DNA of 5,536 nt, from the NCBI GenBank assembly GCA_947302865.1, contig CAMYWS010000090.1, positions 1-5,536 of the forward strand. Direction: 5' to 3'. Positions 61 through 5,377 of this stretch are shown in pieces. Every line of letters starts with the position of its first letter. The first letter of the stretch is position 1. A model generated the notes under the pieces. It did no database searches and was not told the DNA's origin. It saw only the letters and a program-made list of their open reading frames with translations. The DNA comes from an uncultured Clostridia bacterium (GTDB lineage: Bacteria; Bacillota_A; Clostridia; Christensenellales; CAG-138). Both the position numbers and the translations under genes were made by a program.

Positions 61-87
61 AAAAAGCGGAAGCCCCTCGACTTCCGC
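61..87 (-). terminator. Rho-independent terminator of the operon
   Basis: On the minus strand GCGGAAG (87-81) pairs with CTTCCGC (72-66) around an 8-nt loop and is followed directly by TTTTT (65-61). It lies 66 nt after the DUF4956 stop codon. There is no T-run on the plus-strand side, so it acts in the operon's direction only. Confidence 0.88.
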
Positions 88-153: not shown

Positions 154-810
154 TCACAGTCCGGTCTTGGTGTTGTACGCAACGATGTCCACACTGATCA
201 CGCCTTCTTTGCGGGTCAGCGAACGCAGGCAGTCCACCTGCTCGTTCGAAAGTTTCATCTCGGACACTGTCTCCTGCACGCCCTCGGCGCTGGAGCAGGA
301 TTTCAGCTTGCCCTTCGACAGAAGCGGCGAAACCTCGTTAAGCGCAATCGAATCCTCGGTGCGTACGACGACGAGATACAGGTCCTGCTGCGCGACGCGT
401 CCGAAATAATACACGGCAAGAATCAGGATGCCGATGCCGAGCGTTGCCAGTATGGAGACGAGCACAAAACCCGCACCGCAGATGATGCCGTTCACGATCG
501 CCCAGAACATGAACACGGTGTCCATGACGTCCTTGACCGCGGTGCGGAAACGGACGATCGACAGCGCGCCGACCATGCCGAGCGACAGCACGACGTTCGA
601 GGAGATCGCGAGGATCACGGCGGACGTGACGAGGCTCAGCAGCATCAGTGAGAGCGAGAACCGTTTGGAGAACATCACACCCGAATACACGAGCCGGTAA
701 ACAAAGATGATGTAGAGACTCAGCACGAAGCTGAGACCGACGCAAAGCAGCAGGTGGCCGACACTGACCGCGGAAAGCTCTGATGCAAAGAAATCTGTGA
801 TTCGTTCCAT
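154..810 (-). CDS. DUF4956 integral membrane protein
   Basis: This is a 218-residue membrane protein of unknown biochemical function. Hydrophobic segments lie at about 18-39, 51-70, 97-112 and 113-134, giving about four transmembrane helices. Between the second and third lies the family's hallmark stretch GMVGALSIVRFRTAVKDVMDT (within 78-98), a Gly-rich turn with Arg87, Arg89 and Lys93 that probably sits at the cytoplasmic membrane face. Residues about 142-218 form a soluble C-terminal domain with alternating strand and helix character (DLYLVVVRTED; GVISVDIVAYN). The ATG at 810 has AGAGG 6 nt upstream and lies 21 nt after the VTC stop codon. DUF4956 genes commonly sit beside VTC-domain genes, so a role as membrane partner of the polymerase is reasonable but inferred. 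The conserved basic motif could contact an anionic polymer. It is the last gene before the terminator. Confidence 0.9.
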   Translation of the reverse strand: MERITDFFASELSAVSVGHLLLCVGLSFVLSLYIIFVYRLVYSGVMFSKRFSLSLMLLSLVTSAVILAISSNVVLSLGMVGALSIVRFRTAVKDVMDTVFMFWAIVNGIICGAGFVLVSILATLGIGILILAVYYFGRVAQQDLYLVVVRTEDSIALNEVSPLLSKGKLKSCSSAEGVQETVSEMKLSNEQVDCLRSLTRKEGVISVDIVAYNTKTGL

Positions 811-831
811 AGGATACCTCTTGATTTGTAA

Positions 832-1521
832 TTATTCGATGCCGTGCAGACGGGCATAACTAAGTGCGTATTTGGAAAAAGACTGCTGCTGCCGCGGCAC
901 CGTTTCGAGCACGCGGCCGAGCTGCGCCGGGATGCGGTCGTCGGTTTTGATCTCAAGGATCACCGCACCGTTTTCCAGTACCGGGAACGGCGGGCGCATC
1001 GATGAGAAGAACGTGCAAGGCATGCCCGTATAGACCTGCGTGTCCATCGTGATCCGCACGTTGTCGAACCGGTAGGTATACGGCACACGCCGGTAGTCCA
1101 CGACGGCGGCGGGCAAAAGCCGCTGCGACTTCGCCTCTGCATAGAACGCACGGCACAGCGGTTCATCCGCTTCGGCAAGCGCTGCATAGTCGCCCTGCTG
1201 CATCGCCCGTGCGACGGATTCACCGACGATCGTCTGCGTCTTCTTGGTCATGTCCCCGACTTTTTCCTTCTTCTCAAGCCGGATCAGACCGAGGTCGCCG
1301 TTATAGAACCTGAGCCGGTACTTGCACCGGTCCGCTTCGCCGTCCATCTTCTCCCGGAATGCATCGGCGTCCGGCGTATCGAAGTACAGACTGCGAATCT
1401 GATACGCGCCGCTCTTTGCCTGCGCGTCCATGCGCATCAGCGGCGCAATCCGCGCGCGAAGCACCGCGGCCGTATCGAGACTGATGATATATTTCTTTTC
1501 GATCCGGAATCCGTCCTGCAT
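832..1521 (-). CDS. VTC-domain polyphosphate polymerase family protein (CYTH superfamily)
   Basis: This 229-residue protein has no signal peptide or membrane segment, so it is cytoplasmic or peripheral. The triphosphate-tunnel pattern of VTC domains runs throughout. It has RIEKKYI (6-12), SLYFDT (44-49), the basic KYRLRFY (67-73), RLEKKEK (81-87) with Lys93-Lys94, VDYRRVPYTY (141-150), RITMDT (156-161), LEIK (189-192) and SFSKY (214-218). In yeast Vtc4 this fold polymerises the ATP gamma-phosphate into polyphosphate inside a basic tunnel lined by such Lys, Arg and Glu residues. They look intact here, so catalysis is plausible. Yeast VTC subunits also carry SPX and transmembrane domains, and both are absent here, leaving a bare catalytic domain. 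The ATG at 1521 has GGAGG 8 nt upstream, inside the last Gly-Gly codons of the CotH gene. The gap is 4 nt, so translational coupling is likely. A different CYTH activity, such as a triphosphatase, remains possible. Confidence 0.9.
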   Translation of the reverse strand: MQDGFRIEKKYIISLDTAAVLRARIAPLMRMDAQAKSGAYQIRSLYFDTPDADAFREKMDGEADRCKYRLRFYNGDLGLIRLEKKEKVGDMTKKTQTIVGESVARAMQQGDYAALAEADEPLCRAFYAEAKSQRLLPAAVVDYRRVPYTYRFDNVRITMDTQVYTGMPCTFFSSMRPPFPVLENGAVILEIKTDDRIPAQLGRVLETVPRQQQSFSKYALSYARLHGIE

Positions 1522-1525
1522 CGCG

Positions 1526-4500
1526 TCAACCTCCGAAGTAGGCGTTGTATTCGGCGTTGGACAGATGGAGCACTTTTTTGGCGCTCTGCTTCAGTTGCTT
1601 CACCCGGTCCGCCTTCAACAGCCGCTCGATCTGGTTATAGTTGTACAGGTAATCCGTTTGCGGCAGACCCCAGCGCGGAAATTGCCGCAGCGTCTCTGTG
1701 CGGACGGCTTCGTCGAACGAATAGAACAGGGCGAGCACGTCCTCCTGCCGGAACGAGTTTTCGCAATGGTACGCGAGCCGCTTCAGAAGCATGTCCTTGA
1801 ACTCGCTGTTTTTGATCAGCGCCTTCAGAAAGTCCGCGGTCTGGCCGGATTTGAACACGTTATCAAAGCTCGCCGGGTTTTTGAACACGCATTCGACGTC
1901 GTAATACACAAAGTGCCACTTGTTGTCGGTCTCCGAACTCTTGAAATACCGGACGTTTCCGGAGAGATCGGTGTTGTAGCAATACGCCTGAAAGATCGCC
2001 CAGTCGATCAGATCCTCGAGCGCAACGTGCTCCTTGATATACTCGTAACACTCGCTCTTGGACATATCGTGCGTTTTGACATACTTCCAGAGCTGATAGA
2101 TCTCGGTCTTCTTATGATCCTCATACATGTAGCCCTCGAACAGCGTGATGCTGTCCGTTTGCACACCGAGCCGATCCGCAAGCGTCTCCCCGCACAGCGA
2201 TTCCATGAAGTGATAGATCCCCCAGTATTCGCCGTTCAGATAGAGCACGCACGGTACGGAATCCTGCACGAACGTCGTGTCGCGGTACGGCATCGCGAGT
2301 TGCTGCGCAAGCGGCTCGCGGAAAACGCCGTACTTGGAATCCAGTCCCGCTCGGATCTGCAGCTGAGGAAATGTCGACTGCTCGCAATCGTCGCCGAACA
2401 GATCGTACCGGAGCCGACCGCCGTACTGGTCGGAAAAGATCACCCGAAACGACTTTTGTCCGCGGCGGCGGGAAGTCTGCCCGCTGATCCGCACGCCGCA
2501 ATCGTGCGTGATCGTGCCGTTCCCGTCGGTATAGACGATGCACGCTTCCCTCTGCCAGTTTTCCATCGGATGCGAATAGATGCCCTTGGCGCCGTTCAGG
2601 TCGTTCGGCGCCATGATCAGGTTCAGCACCGGCAGCGTATGTCCCTCGTTCACAGTATAGGCAAGCGTCAGCGGCTTGCTCATCCGCTTGTCGTCCTCGA
2701 GCGCCGCCGCCCGTATGACGGAGGTTTGGGACACCCGGATCGGTTCGGTATAGACGTTCGACTTCGTCGTCGGTTTCGACCCGTCGGTCGTATAATAGAC
2801 GGTACCGGTTCCGCTCAATGCAACCGCAAACGTATCGACGTTCTCAAAAACGCCGGAATTGACGGAGGCCGTCGGCATTTCCGTTCGCATGACCGCCGCC
2901 GTGCCGTTCCCGTTCGCCCTGCGGGGGGTCGGGCTCTCATAGAAGTATACGCCGCCCCCGCGGCCGTTGCGGCCGATCGAGCCCTCCGGCGGGACATCGT
3001 AGATATGCAGATAGTCTAGCAACTCGCCCGCGCTGTTGTAAAGGTACACCCGGTCCTCCCCGCCGTTCAGCTTGAACGGTGCGTGGAAGCCGTTCTTGTC
3101 GGTCAGCGACGCGTTGCCGGAGCAATAAACCAGATAGTACGCGCCGCTGTTGAGCATCGTATCCGGCAGCGCGCATTTGAACGGCTCATCGGTATCGTCG
3201 GTCAGATAGTAGCCGGCAAGGTTGATCGGCTCCGCCGCGCTGTTGCGCAGCTCGACCCAGTCGAAATACTCGCCGTTGTTCTTCGCCACGGTCCGGTTCG
3301 CGGGCATCGCCTCGCTGATATAGAGCTCGCCCGCTATGTAAGACTGCAAAAAGAGCTGATACCCTGCGCCGGTGTTCGCATAGCCGGGCGTCGGGCAGTC
3401 GGTTTCGGCAAACGATCCGTCGCCGGTACGGACGAAGGAACGATCCGGTTCCGCCGCCGGATATACAGCGCAGTCCAGAAGCATGCCCGATGCGGAGGAC
3501 AGATATACCGCACCGCCCTTGCTGCTCAGCCCGAACGGCGCGACGATCTCACCGTCGTCGCCGCCTTCCTTGCTGCACCGGATCACGATGAATTCGCCCG
3601 GTGCGAGCGCAACGTCCGGCAGTCGGAAACGCATGAGGTCGCTGTCCCGGTCGGACAGACAGAATGTGCCGGTCATGATCGTATCGTTCGCTGCATTGTA
3701 AAGCTCGACCCAGTCGGCAAATACGCCGTCACCGAATGCGAACGTACATTTGTTGTCCGGCATCACTTCGCTGATCAGAAGCCCGGTGACGACCTGCTGC
3801 TGCATGCGATAGGCGGCAATACCTGCTTCATCGTTGGAGAAGTTCGGCGTCGGCTCGGAATAGCGCGCAGGCAGGATCCCGCCATCATAGACGAGCGAGA
3901 CGTCGGTTTCTGCAGCAACGGTAATCGCTGCACTGTACAGTGTGCCGTCCGGTTTGGTCAGATACACGGTCTCACCGCCTGCAGCAGACAGACTGAACAG
4001 CGCCGCCTGCCCGGTCGGCTCCGTATCGTCGCACGAGATCACGAGGTATCCGCCTGCCGGGATTACCGTCCCATCCGGGAACGTATACCGCACGGACGTG
4101 ACGCTGTCGCTGAGCCCGTAGCCGGAGCAATCGACCTCAGAGTCCGCGGTATTGACCAGTTCGATCCAATCCGGTGCAGCACCGTCCGCAAGCAGCACGG
4201 AACGGTTGGCCGTCATGATTTCACTGAACCGCACGGCGCTGCCGGACATATATGTGTTCAGGCAGTCCTGCCGCCCCTGCTCGTTATTCGCAAAGCCGGG
4301 CGTCGCATACGCGATTGCAATCGGTTCGCCGTCCTCGCGCACGATCGCGCCGTTTTTGGCGCAGGGCACGGTGGTCAGATAATCTGTCAGCACACCGTCC
4401 GCCGTATAGAGAAGCAGCAGTTCGCCGCCGTTGCGCGAAAGCCCAAAATCGGCGTACAGCCCGTCCGTTTGTGAACGCGCACAACGGATCAGGCAGTACC

Positions 4501-5272
4501 CGTCCGGCGCAAGCACGGTCCCGGACGGCACGGCAAACTGCATTCCCTCGATGCCGTCCTGCAGCACGTACCCGCCGATGTTCACCTGCTCGTCCGAGCC
4601 GTTATAAAGCTCTACAATGTCCGTGACAAGCCCGTTTTCGTCGGCAAACAGCGAATTGGACGTGATGACCTCGGAGATCGTAACCGGACCGGACACGGCG
4701 CGCAGGCTCAGTTCGATCCCGGACTGTGCCGGAGCCGCCTCCGTGATGGCTGCGGCGCCCGGCGACGGCTGCGTGGACACGCGGAACTGACCTTTCTCGT
4801 CGCGCTCGGCAGACGTATTGTCCGAAAGCGGGATCGTCATAACGGAATCAATCAGAACATTCTTCCGATTGAGCAGCAGCAATTCTTCCCCGCCAACGCG
4901 TGAGATACCGAAATCGGCGTATTCGTCACCGCCGGAGCGCAGGCAATAGATTACGTAATATCCGTGTCCCTCGATCACGGTTCCCGCCGGAACGGTATAG
5001 CGGGACTTACGGCTGGTGTCGGTCAGCTTGAAACCGCCGATCGAAATTGCCGCGTCGGAAGAATTATACAGCTCAACCCAGTCGGTGCAGACGCCGTTTG
5101 CGTTCGGATAAAGCGTGTTGGATGCCATGTATTCCTGGATCTGCACAGGAAATTTGGACGTACTCTGGTTGCTGCTCAAACGCGAAGAAACCCGGCTTCC
5201 CAGGATCGCCAACCCGATGAGCGCGATCGCCGAGCCGAGAATCAGCAGCAATGCAGTTTTTTTCTTGTGCAT
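1526..5272 (-). CDS. Membrane-anchored extracellular CotH-family kinase with five lamin-tail domains
   Basis: This is a 1248-residue protein, numbered from the ATG at 5272. Residues 1-5 are basic (MHKKK) and residues 6-24 form one hydrophobic segment. No lipobox or clear signal-peptidase site follows, so a signal anchor with the rest outside is likely. Five lamin-tail (LTD) domains follow at about 43-172, 197-329, 347-480, 498-633 and 650-788. Each has a [IV]SE-type first strand, a DW[VI]EL.N motif and a closing PTPG.AN-like motif. Residues about 803-874 resemble the chitobiase C-terminal/Fn3-associated domain (YYTTDGSKPT). The CotH domain starts near 880. It shows GQTSRRRGQKSFRVIF (931-946, candidate nucleotide-binding Lys940), LNGEYWGIYHFMES (1012-1025, Glu1024) and the acidic YYDVECVF (1123-1130). 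Bacillus subtilis CotH is an atypical kinase that phosphorylates spore coat proteins CotB and CotG; the substrate here is unknown. The ATG was chosen because AAGGAG lies 8 nt upstream. An in-frame TTG at 5335 would lie only a few bases from the predicted transcription start. First gene of the operon. Confidence 0.93.
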   Translation of the reverse strand: MHKKKTALLLILGSAIALIGLAILGSRVSSRLSSNQSTSKFPVQIQEYMASNTLYPNANGVCTDWVELYNSSDAAISIGGFKLTDTSRKSRYTVPAGTVIEGHGYYVIYCLRSGGDEYADFGISRVGGEELLLLNRKNVLIDSVMTIPLSDNTSAERDEKGQFRVSTQPSPGAAAITEAAPAQSGIELSLRAVSGPVTISEVITSNSLFADENGLVTDIVELYNGSDEQVNIGGYVLQDGIEGMQFAVPSGTVLAPDGYCLIRCARSQTDGLYADFGLSRNGGELLLLYTADGVLTDYLTTVPCAKNGAIVREDGEPIAIAYATPGFANNEQGRQDCLNTYMSGSAVRFSEIMTANRSVLLADGAAPDWIELVNTADSEVDCSGYGLSDSVTSVRYTFPDGTVIPAGGYLVISCDDTEPTGQAALFSLSAAGGETVYLTKPDGTLYSAAITVAAETDVSLVYDGGILPARYSEPTPNFSNDEAGIAAYRMQQQVVTGLLISEVMPDNKCTFAFGDGVFADWVELYNAANDTIMTGTFCLSDRDSDLMRFRLPDVALAPGEFIVIRCSKEGGDDGEIVAPFGLSSKGGAVYLSSASGMLLDCAVYPAAEPDRSFVRTGDGSFAETDCPTPGYANTGAGYQLFLQSYIAGELYISEAMPANRTVAKNNGEYFDWVELRNSAAEPINLAGYYLTDDTDEPFKCALPDTMLNSGAYYLVYCSGNASLTDKNGFHAPFKLNGGEDRVYLYNSAGELLDYLHIYDVPPEGSIGRNGRGGGVYFYESPTPRRANGNGTAAVMRTEMPTASVNSGVFENVDTFAVALSGTGTVYYTTDGSKPTTKSNVYTEPIRVSQTSVIRAAALEDDKRMSKPLTLAYTVNEGHTLPVLNLIMAPNDLNGAKGIYSHPMENWQREACIVYTDGNGTITHDCGVRISGQTSRRRGQKSFRVIFSDQYGGRLRYDLFGDDCEQSTFPQLQIRAGLDSKYGVFREPLAQQLAMPYRDTTFVQDSVPCVLYLNGEYWGIYHFMESLCGETLADRLGVQTDSITLFEGYMYEDHKKTEIYQLWKYVKTHDMSKSECYEYIKEHVALEDLIDWAIFQAYCYNTDLSGNVRYFKSSETDNKWHFVYYDVECVFKNPASFDNVFKSGQTADFLKALIKNSEFKDMLLKRLAYHCENSFRQEDVLALFYSFDEAVRTETLRQFPRWGLPQTDYLYNYNQIERLLKADRVKQLKQSAKKVLHLSNAEYNAYFGG
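1530..1534 (-). promoter_or_regulatory. Ribosome binding site of the VTC gene inside the CotH 3' end
   Basis: GGAGG on the minus strand is formed by the last two glycine codons of the CotH gene (GGA GGT TGA) and sits 8 nt before the VTC ATG. Ribosomes finishing the first gene would uncover or directly reuse this site. Confidence 0.8.
2909..5146 (-). repeat. Array of five diverged lamin-tail domain repeats within the CotH gene
   Basis: Five protein-level repeats of about 130-140 residues run at nucleotides 5146-4757, 4684-4286, 4234-3833, 3781-3374 and 3325-2909. Shared landmarks are an opening strand (VQIQEYMASN, VTISEVITSN, VRFSEIMTAN, LLISEVMPDN, LYISEAMPAN), then TDWVELYN or a variant, a GY.L.D turn, and a strand ending in a cysteine in all five copies (Cys110, 264, 414, 566, 717). 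A closing TPG.AN-like motif follows in most copies. The repeats are strongly diverged, so this is an old domain duplication rather than a recent DNA tandem repeat. Only short DNA stretches, such as the complement of CTCGACCCAGTCG near the DWVEL codons, remain similar. Bacterial LTDs are presumed to be adhesive or ligand-binding immunoglobulin-like folds; the ligand is unknown. Confidence 0.88.
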
Positions 5273-5348: not shown

Positions 5349-5377
5349 AGTATACCATTTTTCGACAGTCTTGTAAA
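5349..5377 (-). promoter_or_regulatory. Sigma-A-type promoter of the CotH-VTC-DUF4956 operon
   Basis: On the minus strand, TTTACA (5377-5372) is followed by a 17-bp spacer and TATACT (5354-5349). The -10 is preceded by TG one base upstream (TGGTATACT), an extended -10. Transcription should start near 5340-5343, giving a leader of about 70 nt before the ATG at 5272. Each hexamer differs from consensus at one position and the spacing is ideal. No comparably good promoter was noticed in the short gaps before the two downstream genes, which supports one transcript. Confidence 0.8.

Follow-up and report, generated by a model that had tools for sequence, protein, structure and literature searches.

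A CotH-VTC-DUF4956 operon in an uncultured Clostridia bacterium and a VTC-DUF4956 gene pair with exchangeable partner genes

The gene set that joins a CotH kinase, a VTC-type polyphosphate polymerase and a DUF4956 membrane protein is not itself new, and is in print as an accessory group of Pel polysaccharide loci with deletion phenotypes. In 2020, cotH, polyphosphate polymerase, DUF4956 and DUF4832 genes were described beside pelDEADAFG in Gram-positive bacteria (PMC7112168), and in 2025 the Streptococcus intermedius homologues SIR_1594-1592 were each deleted (PMC12345266); what we say of these and other cited articles covers the accessible parts of each text. All four accessory mutants of S. 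intermedius still aggregate, and in artificial sputum medium aggregation falls by more than half in those lacking DUF4956 or CotH. Pel output rises in the DUF4956 mutant and falls in the CotH mutant. The streptococcal DUF4956 homologue was already described there as MgtC plus ACT with four membrane segments, and the authors found no instance of the trio away from the Pel locus. A further related set is NELoc-2 of Clostridium perfringens (PMC2879425; related source PMC11677781), for which the accessible tables place VTC and CotH near each other and give no Pel names. Here we examine a stretch of 5,536 nucleotides from an uncultured Clostridia bacterium (contig CAMYWS010000090.1; hereafter the window), in which CotH, VTC and DUF4956 genes form an operon. 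A preliminary description had held that this neighbourhood recurs in Clostridia, as it does, and that it has no known context, a view now superseded by the Pel reports.

A scan for related loci returned four, all in metagenome-assembled genomes (MAGs). The nearest relative, L001, is from a sheep-rumen Clostridia MAG (VTC identity 93%; its genome is G001), and the others are from Clostridia MAGs of goat reticulum (L002, 74%) and sheep ileum (L003, 63%) and from a Lachnospiraceae MAG (L004, 30%). We then sampled 196 genomes evenly across the class to which G001 belongs, most of them drafts and with related genomes retained. VTC matches were found in 97 genomes, DUF4956 matches in 94 and both in 92 (Fisher P 9e-47). 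For 108 of 121 VTC matches a DUF4956 gene lies within 1.5 kb on the same strand, downstream in 107 of the 108. Co-occurrence no better than chance, the outcome that the preliminary description had named as speaking against it, is thus not what is seen, because the linkage far exceeds chance.

Of the 13 VTC matches lacking DUF4956 within 1.5 kb, one (in G022) has the gene 1.9 kb away and the contigs of the other 12 contain none; seven of these 12 are partial, three lie at a contig end and two (G047, G181) are seemingly complete. Eight of 116 DUF4956 matches are not beside VTC, of which three score below the DUF4956 cut-off and one is a true MgtC that the DUF4956 model also matches below it. The matches are likewise below cut-off in the two genomes with DUF4956 and without VTC (G125, G166). 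The median VTC-DUF4956 gap is 7 nt over 35 mapped neighbour pairs, a statistic in which overlaps are over-counted because our simple gene caller takes the longest frame; the caller also missed VTC in 4 of 44 mapped loci. Among 14 named control genomes, scored for presence in the genome rather than adjacency, VTC and DUF4956 both match in Bacteroides ihuae, Corynebacterium glutamicum and Methanosarcina acetivorans only. CotH matches in C. glutamicum, M. acetivorans and Bacillus subtilis, the last without a VTC match, and Cthe_2159 in B. ihuae only.

The third gene is less constant than the pair. CotH occurs in 71 survey genomes and Cthe_2159, a family first recognised by Pfam in one member of a cluster that accompanies CotH-less pairs and then searched as a family, in 74. 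One or the other is present in 93 of 97 VTC genomes versus 11 of 99 others. The polyphosphate kinase PPK1 shows no association with VTC (36/97 versus 27/99, P 0.17), which weighs neither way. Linkage of the two partners was counted among the matches listed (at least 150 for CotH), after dropping further stretches of an already counted Cthe_2159 protein. Across the 109 VTC-DUF4956 pairs no more than 2 kb apart, the listed matches place CotH within 3 kb in 47 cases and Cthe_2159 in 32 (downstream in 28), and no pair has both (P 1e-10 if independent). Because of this distribution and the 108/121 linkage, we regard VTC and DUF4956 as a core with an exchangeable extracellular partner, and the preliminary view of CotH as a fixed third member has to be given up for the 32 pairs that carry Cthe_2159 instead.

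The two partners also share features. By a simple test, ten of 11 Cthe_2159-cluster frames in mapped loci have a hydrophobic segment at the N terminus; the exception falls narrowly below threshold. In G117, a Cthe_2159 protein bears a CotH-type anchor (15 of 26 residues identical, where 200 shuffles reached at most 11), and the VTC of locus L122, whose Cthe_2159 protein (6879-8399) carries a membrane anchor of the CotH type, falls in the CotH group of the VTC tree. This tree of 62 proteins, a quick one with 29 weak forks, four unlabelled rows and hand-set labels for the window and L002-L004, has two deep groups. The group of 28 rows holds 23 CotH, one Cthe_2159 and four unlabelled loci including the window; the group of 34 holds 17 Cthe_2159, 13 with neither and four CotH. 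CotH and Cthe_2159 swap five times along the tree. Separately, Cthe_2159 and CotH are both among the domains unique to anaerobic rumen fungi in one comparison (PMC6712302), the same two partners as in this survey.

We tentatively favor the view that the window carries a free-standing member of a widespread surface unit, in which VTC polymerises phosphate, DUF4956 docks the enzyme and passes its product, and the extracellular partner acts outside. The soluble VTC would most likely polymerise phosphate from ATP at the inner membrane face. DUF4956, MgtC-like, would pair with VTC, its ACT-like domain and basic inner loops docking or regulating the enzyme, and would convey either the product or a signal to the other side of the membrane. 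The partner, CotH here and Cthe_2159 elsewhere, would act on or hold the product at the surface, often together with exopolysaccharide. The analysis itself shows the order and linkage of the genes, the swap of partners, the conserved tunnel, the kinship with MgtC and a predicted topology; the polymerase activity of VTC, export and a phosphorylation target of CotH we infer. The literature found on the gene set ties it to Pel, but the survey presents VTC-DUF4956 as a common module of its own (92 of 196 genomes), whose partner is in some loci a kinase and in others a polysaccharide-binding protein (Cthe_2159). From this spread and this swap, the set may be viewed as a general surface system, and not as the accessory of one polysaccharide. 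In a stronger form, which we judge improbable, the set would be a polyphosphate export machine: VTC makes the polymer, the MgtC fold carries it, and outside it serves CotH as a phosphate donor where there is no ATP, or Cthe_2159 as a polyanion ligand. If true, this would provide a function for the MgtC fold and a fuel source for a secreted bacterial kinase. Whether a bacterial VTC makes polymer, and whether an MgtC-like protein moves it, are now testable questions.

Several observations weigh against the surface-unit reading. Among the matches listed, 30 of 109 pairs have neither partner within 3 kb. In the accessible text on S. intermedius, no aggregation or Pel change is reported for the VTC deletion, unlike those of its neighbours (PMC12345266). 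In addition, residue E8 of VTC is Glu in 62 of 62 sequences, as in tunnel hydrolases and unlike Vtc4.

The VTC protein scores 127.1 bits against a Pfam cut-off of 23, and possesses the tunnel domain without a transmembrane segment, as had been proposed. Vtc proteins rank first in its fold searches, with a whole-domain match to yeast Vtc4 (PDB 3g3r, 8i6v). Twenty-one columns are invariant in an alignment of the window with 61 of 68 proteins (75% identity filter), which favours high scorers. In the profile match, K10, R69, R71, K85, R145 and R156 align with Vtc4, as do E190, K192 and K217, the latter three only in a second, weak stretch (1.6 bits); K217, which is invariant, aligns with catalytic Lys458. 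Judged from these profiles and folds, VTC keeps a tunnel nearest to that of Vtc4, with its basic and metal-binding residues, the last three being placed by the weak stretch. The fold is common to hydrolases, however, and VTC might be a triphosphate or short-chain polyphosphate hydrolase rather than a polymerase. Tunnel hydrolases carry four acidic-patch glutamates (PMC4641920), one of which is matched by the invariant E8. Nonetheless, acidic-patch positions are basic as in Vtc4 at R6 and, by motif order, at K192, and perhaps at K94, where the alignment of the strand is uncertain. The invariance of K217 and the first rank of Vtc proteins also count against a hydrolase, which we consider very unlikely.

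The preliminary description had pictured DUF4956 as about four helices and a basic loop, forming the membrane half of a yeast-type VTC. A structure model (pLDDT 82) instead shows five helices in the membrane and an end domain of beta-alpha-beta-beta-alpha-beta order, and profile comparison relates the protein to MgtC/SapB. The DUF4956 profile matches a profile of 30 MgtC proteins over 202 columns (probability 97.4, score 82.8), whereas 30 block-shuffled decoys score at most 37.5 and reversed profiles 21.7. Compared separately, the helical part reaches 89.3% and the end domain 21.7%. The window protein does not reach the Pfam cut-off for MgtC (PF02308), with PF16316 its sole match, and the MgtC model matches six DUF4956 places weakly (E 8e-5 to 1e-3), below cut-off. 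A fold search with the end domain finds ACT domains at modest E values (range 0.001 to 0.01, all above 0.001), and the C-terminal domain of MgtC (2lqj) ranks 19th at E 0.007. By these comparisons DUF4956 is a distant MgtC/SapB relative. An alignment of the window with 55 of 66 proteins and 12 of 120 listed homologues, which favours high scorers, keeps R87 in 67 and R89 in 68 of 68 sequences, on the predicted cytosolic side. Mean Lys plus Arg counts in these sequences are 1.5 in the first loop, 2.5 in the third and 2.8 in the C-terminal linker, and about 0 in the second and fourth loops. This distribution of positive charge predicts a cytosolic location for both the ACT-like domain and the R87/R89 motif.

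The resemblance to MgtC also fits a regulator, in which VTC and DUF4956 export nothing: the ACT-like domain and VTC would sense nucleotide or phosphate state, DUF4956 would adjust exopolysaccharide output or the energetics of the membrane, in the way that MgtC acts on ATP synthase, and CotH would be a separate surface effector. Deletion phenotypes point the same way, with Pel raised by loss of DUF4956, lowered by loss of CotH and, in the accessible text, no change reported for VTC (PMC12345266). In 15 of 40 mapped loci (L108, L111, L112, L114, L115, L117, L119, L120, L129-L132, L135, L137, L143), frames of one cluster that by length and first residues resemble the response regulators and histidine kinases of a two-component system occur no more than four genes from VTC, which suggests signal control. 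Conversely, conservation of the VTC tunnel follows the pattern of a polymerase, and the association with secreted proteins in 93 of 97 VTC genomes suggests a product that ends up outside the cell. We consider a pure regulator somewhat unlikely.

The CotH protein combines an N-terminal hydrophobic anchor, five LTD repeats, Fn3_assoc and a C-terminal CotH kinase domain. Residues E1024, N1100-x-D1102 and D1125 sit in conserved columns of the profile alignment, and presumably have kinase roles; the Asn-x-Asp motif deviates in two of 15 relatives (L004, L134). A profile of the 15 proteins matches the solved CotH 5jd9 (E 2e-36), and a Protein Data Bank search with the window protein alone matched no chain. 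The domain with its conserved Asp residues thus appears to be a CotH kinase. A hydrophobic N-terminal segment is found by the simple test in 25 of 26 CotH-cluster frames in mapped loci, the lone exception being the downstream piece of a stop-interrupted frame. The window CotH is probably extracellular, secreted or anchored, in keeping with the preliminary description. In G001, another VTC-DUF4956 pair adjoins a second CotH gene (L125 4780-8190, G001:C5) with one in-frame stop, which reflects either an assembly error or a decaying gene.

Among the matches listed, 42 of 47 CotH-VTC-DUF4956 trios (35 of 39 genomes) lie in genomes without a PelG match, in contrast to the absence of trios outside Pel loci in the accessible text of PMC12345266. 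Absence of PelG from a draft genome is not proof, and one genome with a PelG match below cut-off (G119) was counted as lacking it. These observations bear on a possible role in polysaccharide decoration, in which the set would phosphorylate or charge an exopolysaccharide, Pel or other, with CotH as a surface glycan or protein kinase. VTC and CotH do lie downstream of PelG in three of the six survey genomes with PelG above cut-off. Moreover, five loci (L126 4545-6698, L127, L128, L133, L142) have CotH followed by a conserved protein of ∼720 aa, with no Pfam match in the one member tested (L126). A HEAT frame follows in four of the five and a GT2 frame in three (each identified from one tested member), both being present in L126, L133 and L142. 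Four plasmid records match VTC in all. The same series after CotH (∼720-aa protein, HEAT, GT2) recurs on a Planococcus maritimus plasmid, and CotH-VTC-DUF4956 stands among polysaccharide genes on Pseudobutyrivibrio xylanivorans pNP95. The trios without PelG speak against decoration, but only where Pel is concerned, because other glycosyltransferases were not systematically searched. We consider decoration unlikely as the function of the set, and retain the surface unit as our working view.

Actinobacterial replicons carry DUF4956-VTC in Streptomyces and VTC-CotH in Nonomuraea. In Streptomyces sp. BHT-5-2 (L148 7931-9964), DUF4956-VTC is followed by a 677-aa frame without a Pfam match. At L133 7912-9666, VTC and DUF4956 are separated by a gene whose product has SLH and polysaccharide deacetylase domains.

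The layout of the window operon agrees with the preliminary description: three co-directional genes, separated by 4 nt (CotH-VTC) and 21 nt (VTC-DUF4956), lie between a promoter-like site and a terminator-like hairpin (Table 1). A purine-rich, ribosome-binding-like sequence precedes each start, AAGGAG in the case of CotH. Pfam matches in the CotH protein are LTD (five times, E 4e-71), Fn3_assoc and CotH (E 3e-24), and the other two proteins match VTC (PF09359, E 1e-36) and DUF4956 (PF16316, E 1.6e-10), all above curated cut-offs. The promoter-like site, with 10 of 12 consensus matches, is the best of six sites (shuffles average 2.7), and among 11 terminator-like sites (shuffles 5.6) none is stronger than the hairpin; consensus matches of this kind do not establish function. 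L001 has the same two hexamers (TTTACA...TGGTATACT) upstream of its operon, which ends with its own hairpin and T-run, unlike the window's in sequence.

Table 1. Positions of genes, domains and candidate expression signals in the window.
Feature	Position	Strand	Details
Promoter-like site	5377..5349	minus	TTTACA, 17-nt spacer, TATACT; extended -10 TGGTATACT
CotH gene	5272..1526	minus	1248 aa, counted from ATG
CotH N-terminal anchor/signal segment	5195..5272	minus	residues 1-26, Lys-rich then hydrophobic
CotH kinase domain	1628..2494	minus	residues 927-1215
VTC gene	1521..832	minus	229 aa
DUF4956 gene	810..154	minus	218 aa
Five predicted DUF4956 membrane helices	388..762	minus	residues 17-141
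ACT-like C-terminal domain of DUF4956, predicted cytosolic	178..381	minus	residues 144-211
Terminator-like hairpin and TTTTT	87..66	minus	9 stem pairs; 66 nt past DUF4956 stop

Word searches of the literature that pair DUF4956 with VTC or with MgtC returned nothing, although such searches can miss papers, as with PMC12345266, in which the word DUF4956 does not occur. By itself, DUF4956 occurs in three papers and Cthe_2159 in seven. We have not seen in print the near-obligate VTC-DUF4956 pair or its wide spread outside Pel, nor the exchange of CotH and Cthe_2159, which was not searched for as such.

Among the closest described systems is the Pel accessory set, with which the window shares the same three protein kinds, contiguous genes, a secreted CotH and a membrane protein of the kind described as MgtC plus ACT in PMC12345266. 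However, the window CotH contains five LTD repeats and is the leading gene, with a promoter-like site of its own, the DUF4956 model has five membrane segments versus the four published for the streptococcal homologue, and the draft genome G001 of the 93% relative has no PelG match, an absence that is not proof in a draft. In NELoc-2, genes for VTC, a small membrane protein, CotH, HEAT and GT2 adjoin (PMC2879425); the annotation given for the membrane protein is tubulin/FtsZ, but, judged by size and place, it is probably DUF4956. With MgtC/SapB, DUF4956 shares its helices and C-terminal ACT-like domain as well as profile homology, but differs in an RFR motif that is absent from the MgtC consensus of the profile comparison, and in nearly always adjoining VTC. 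Finally, at E ≤0.001 the sole Pfam matches are PF09359 for the VTC protein and PF16316 for the membrane protein, with no SPX and no Vtc1-like DUF202. Unlike the yeast VTC complex, the window therefore has a VTC without SPX or a membrane segment, beside a membrane partner that is MgtC-like.
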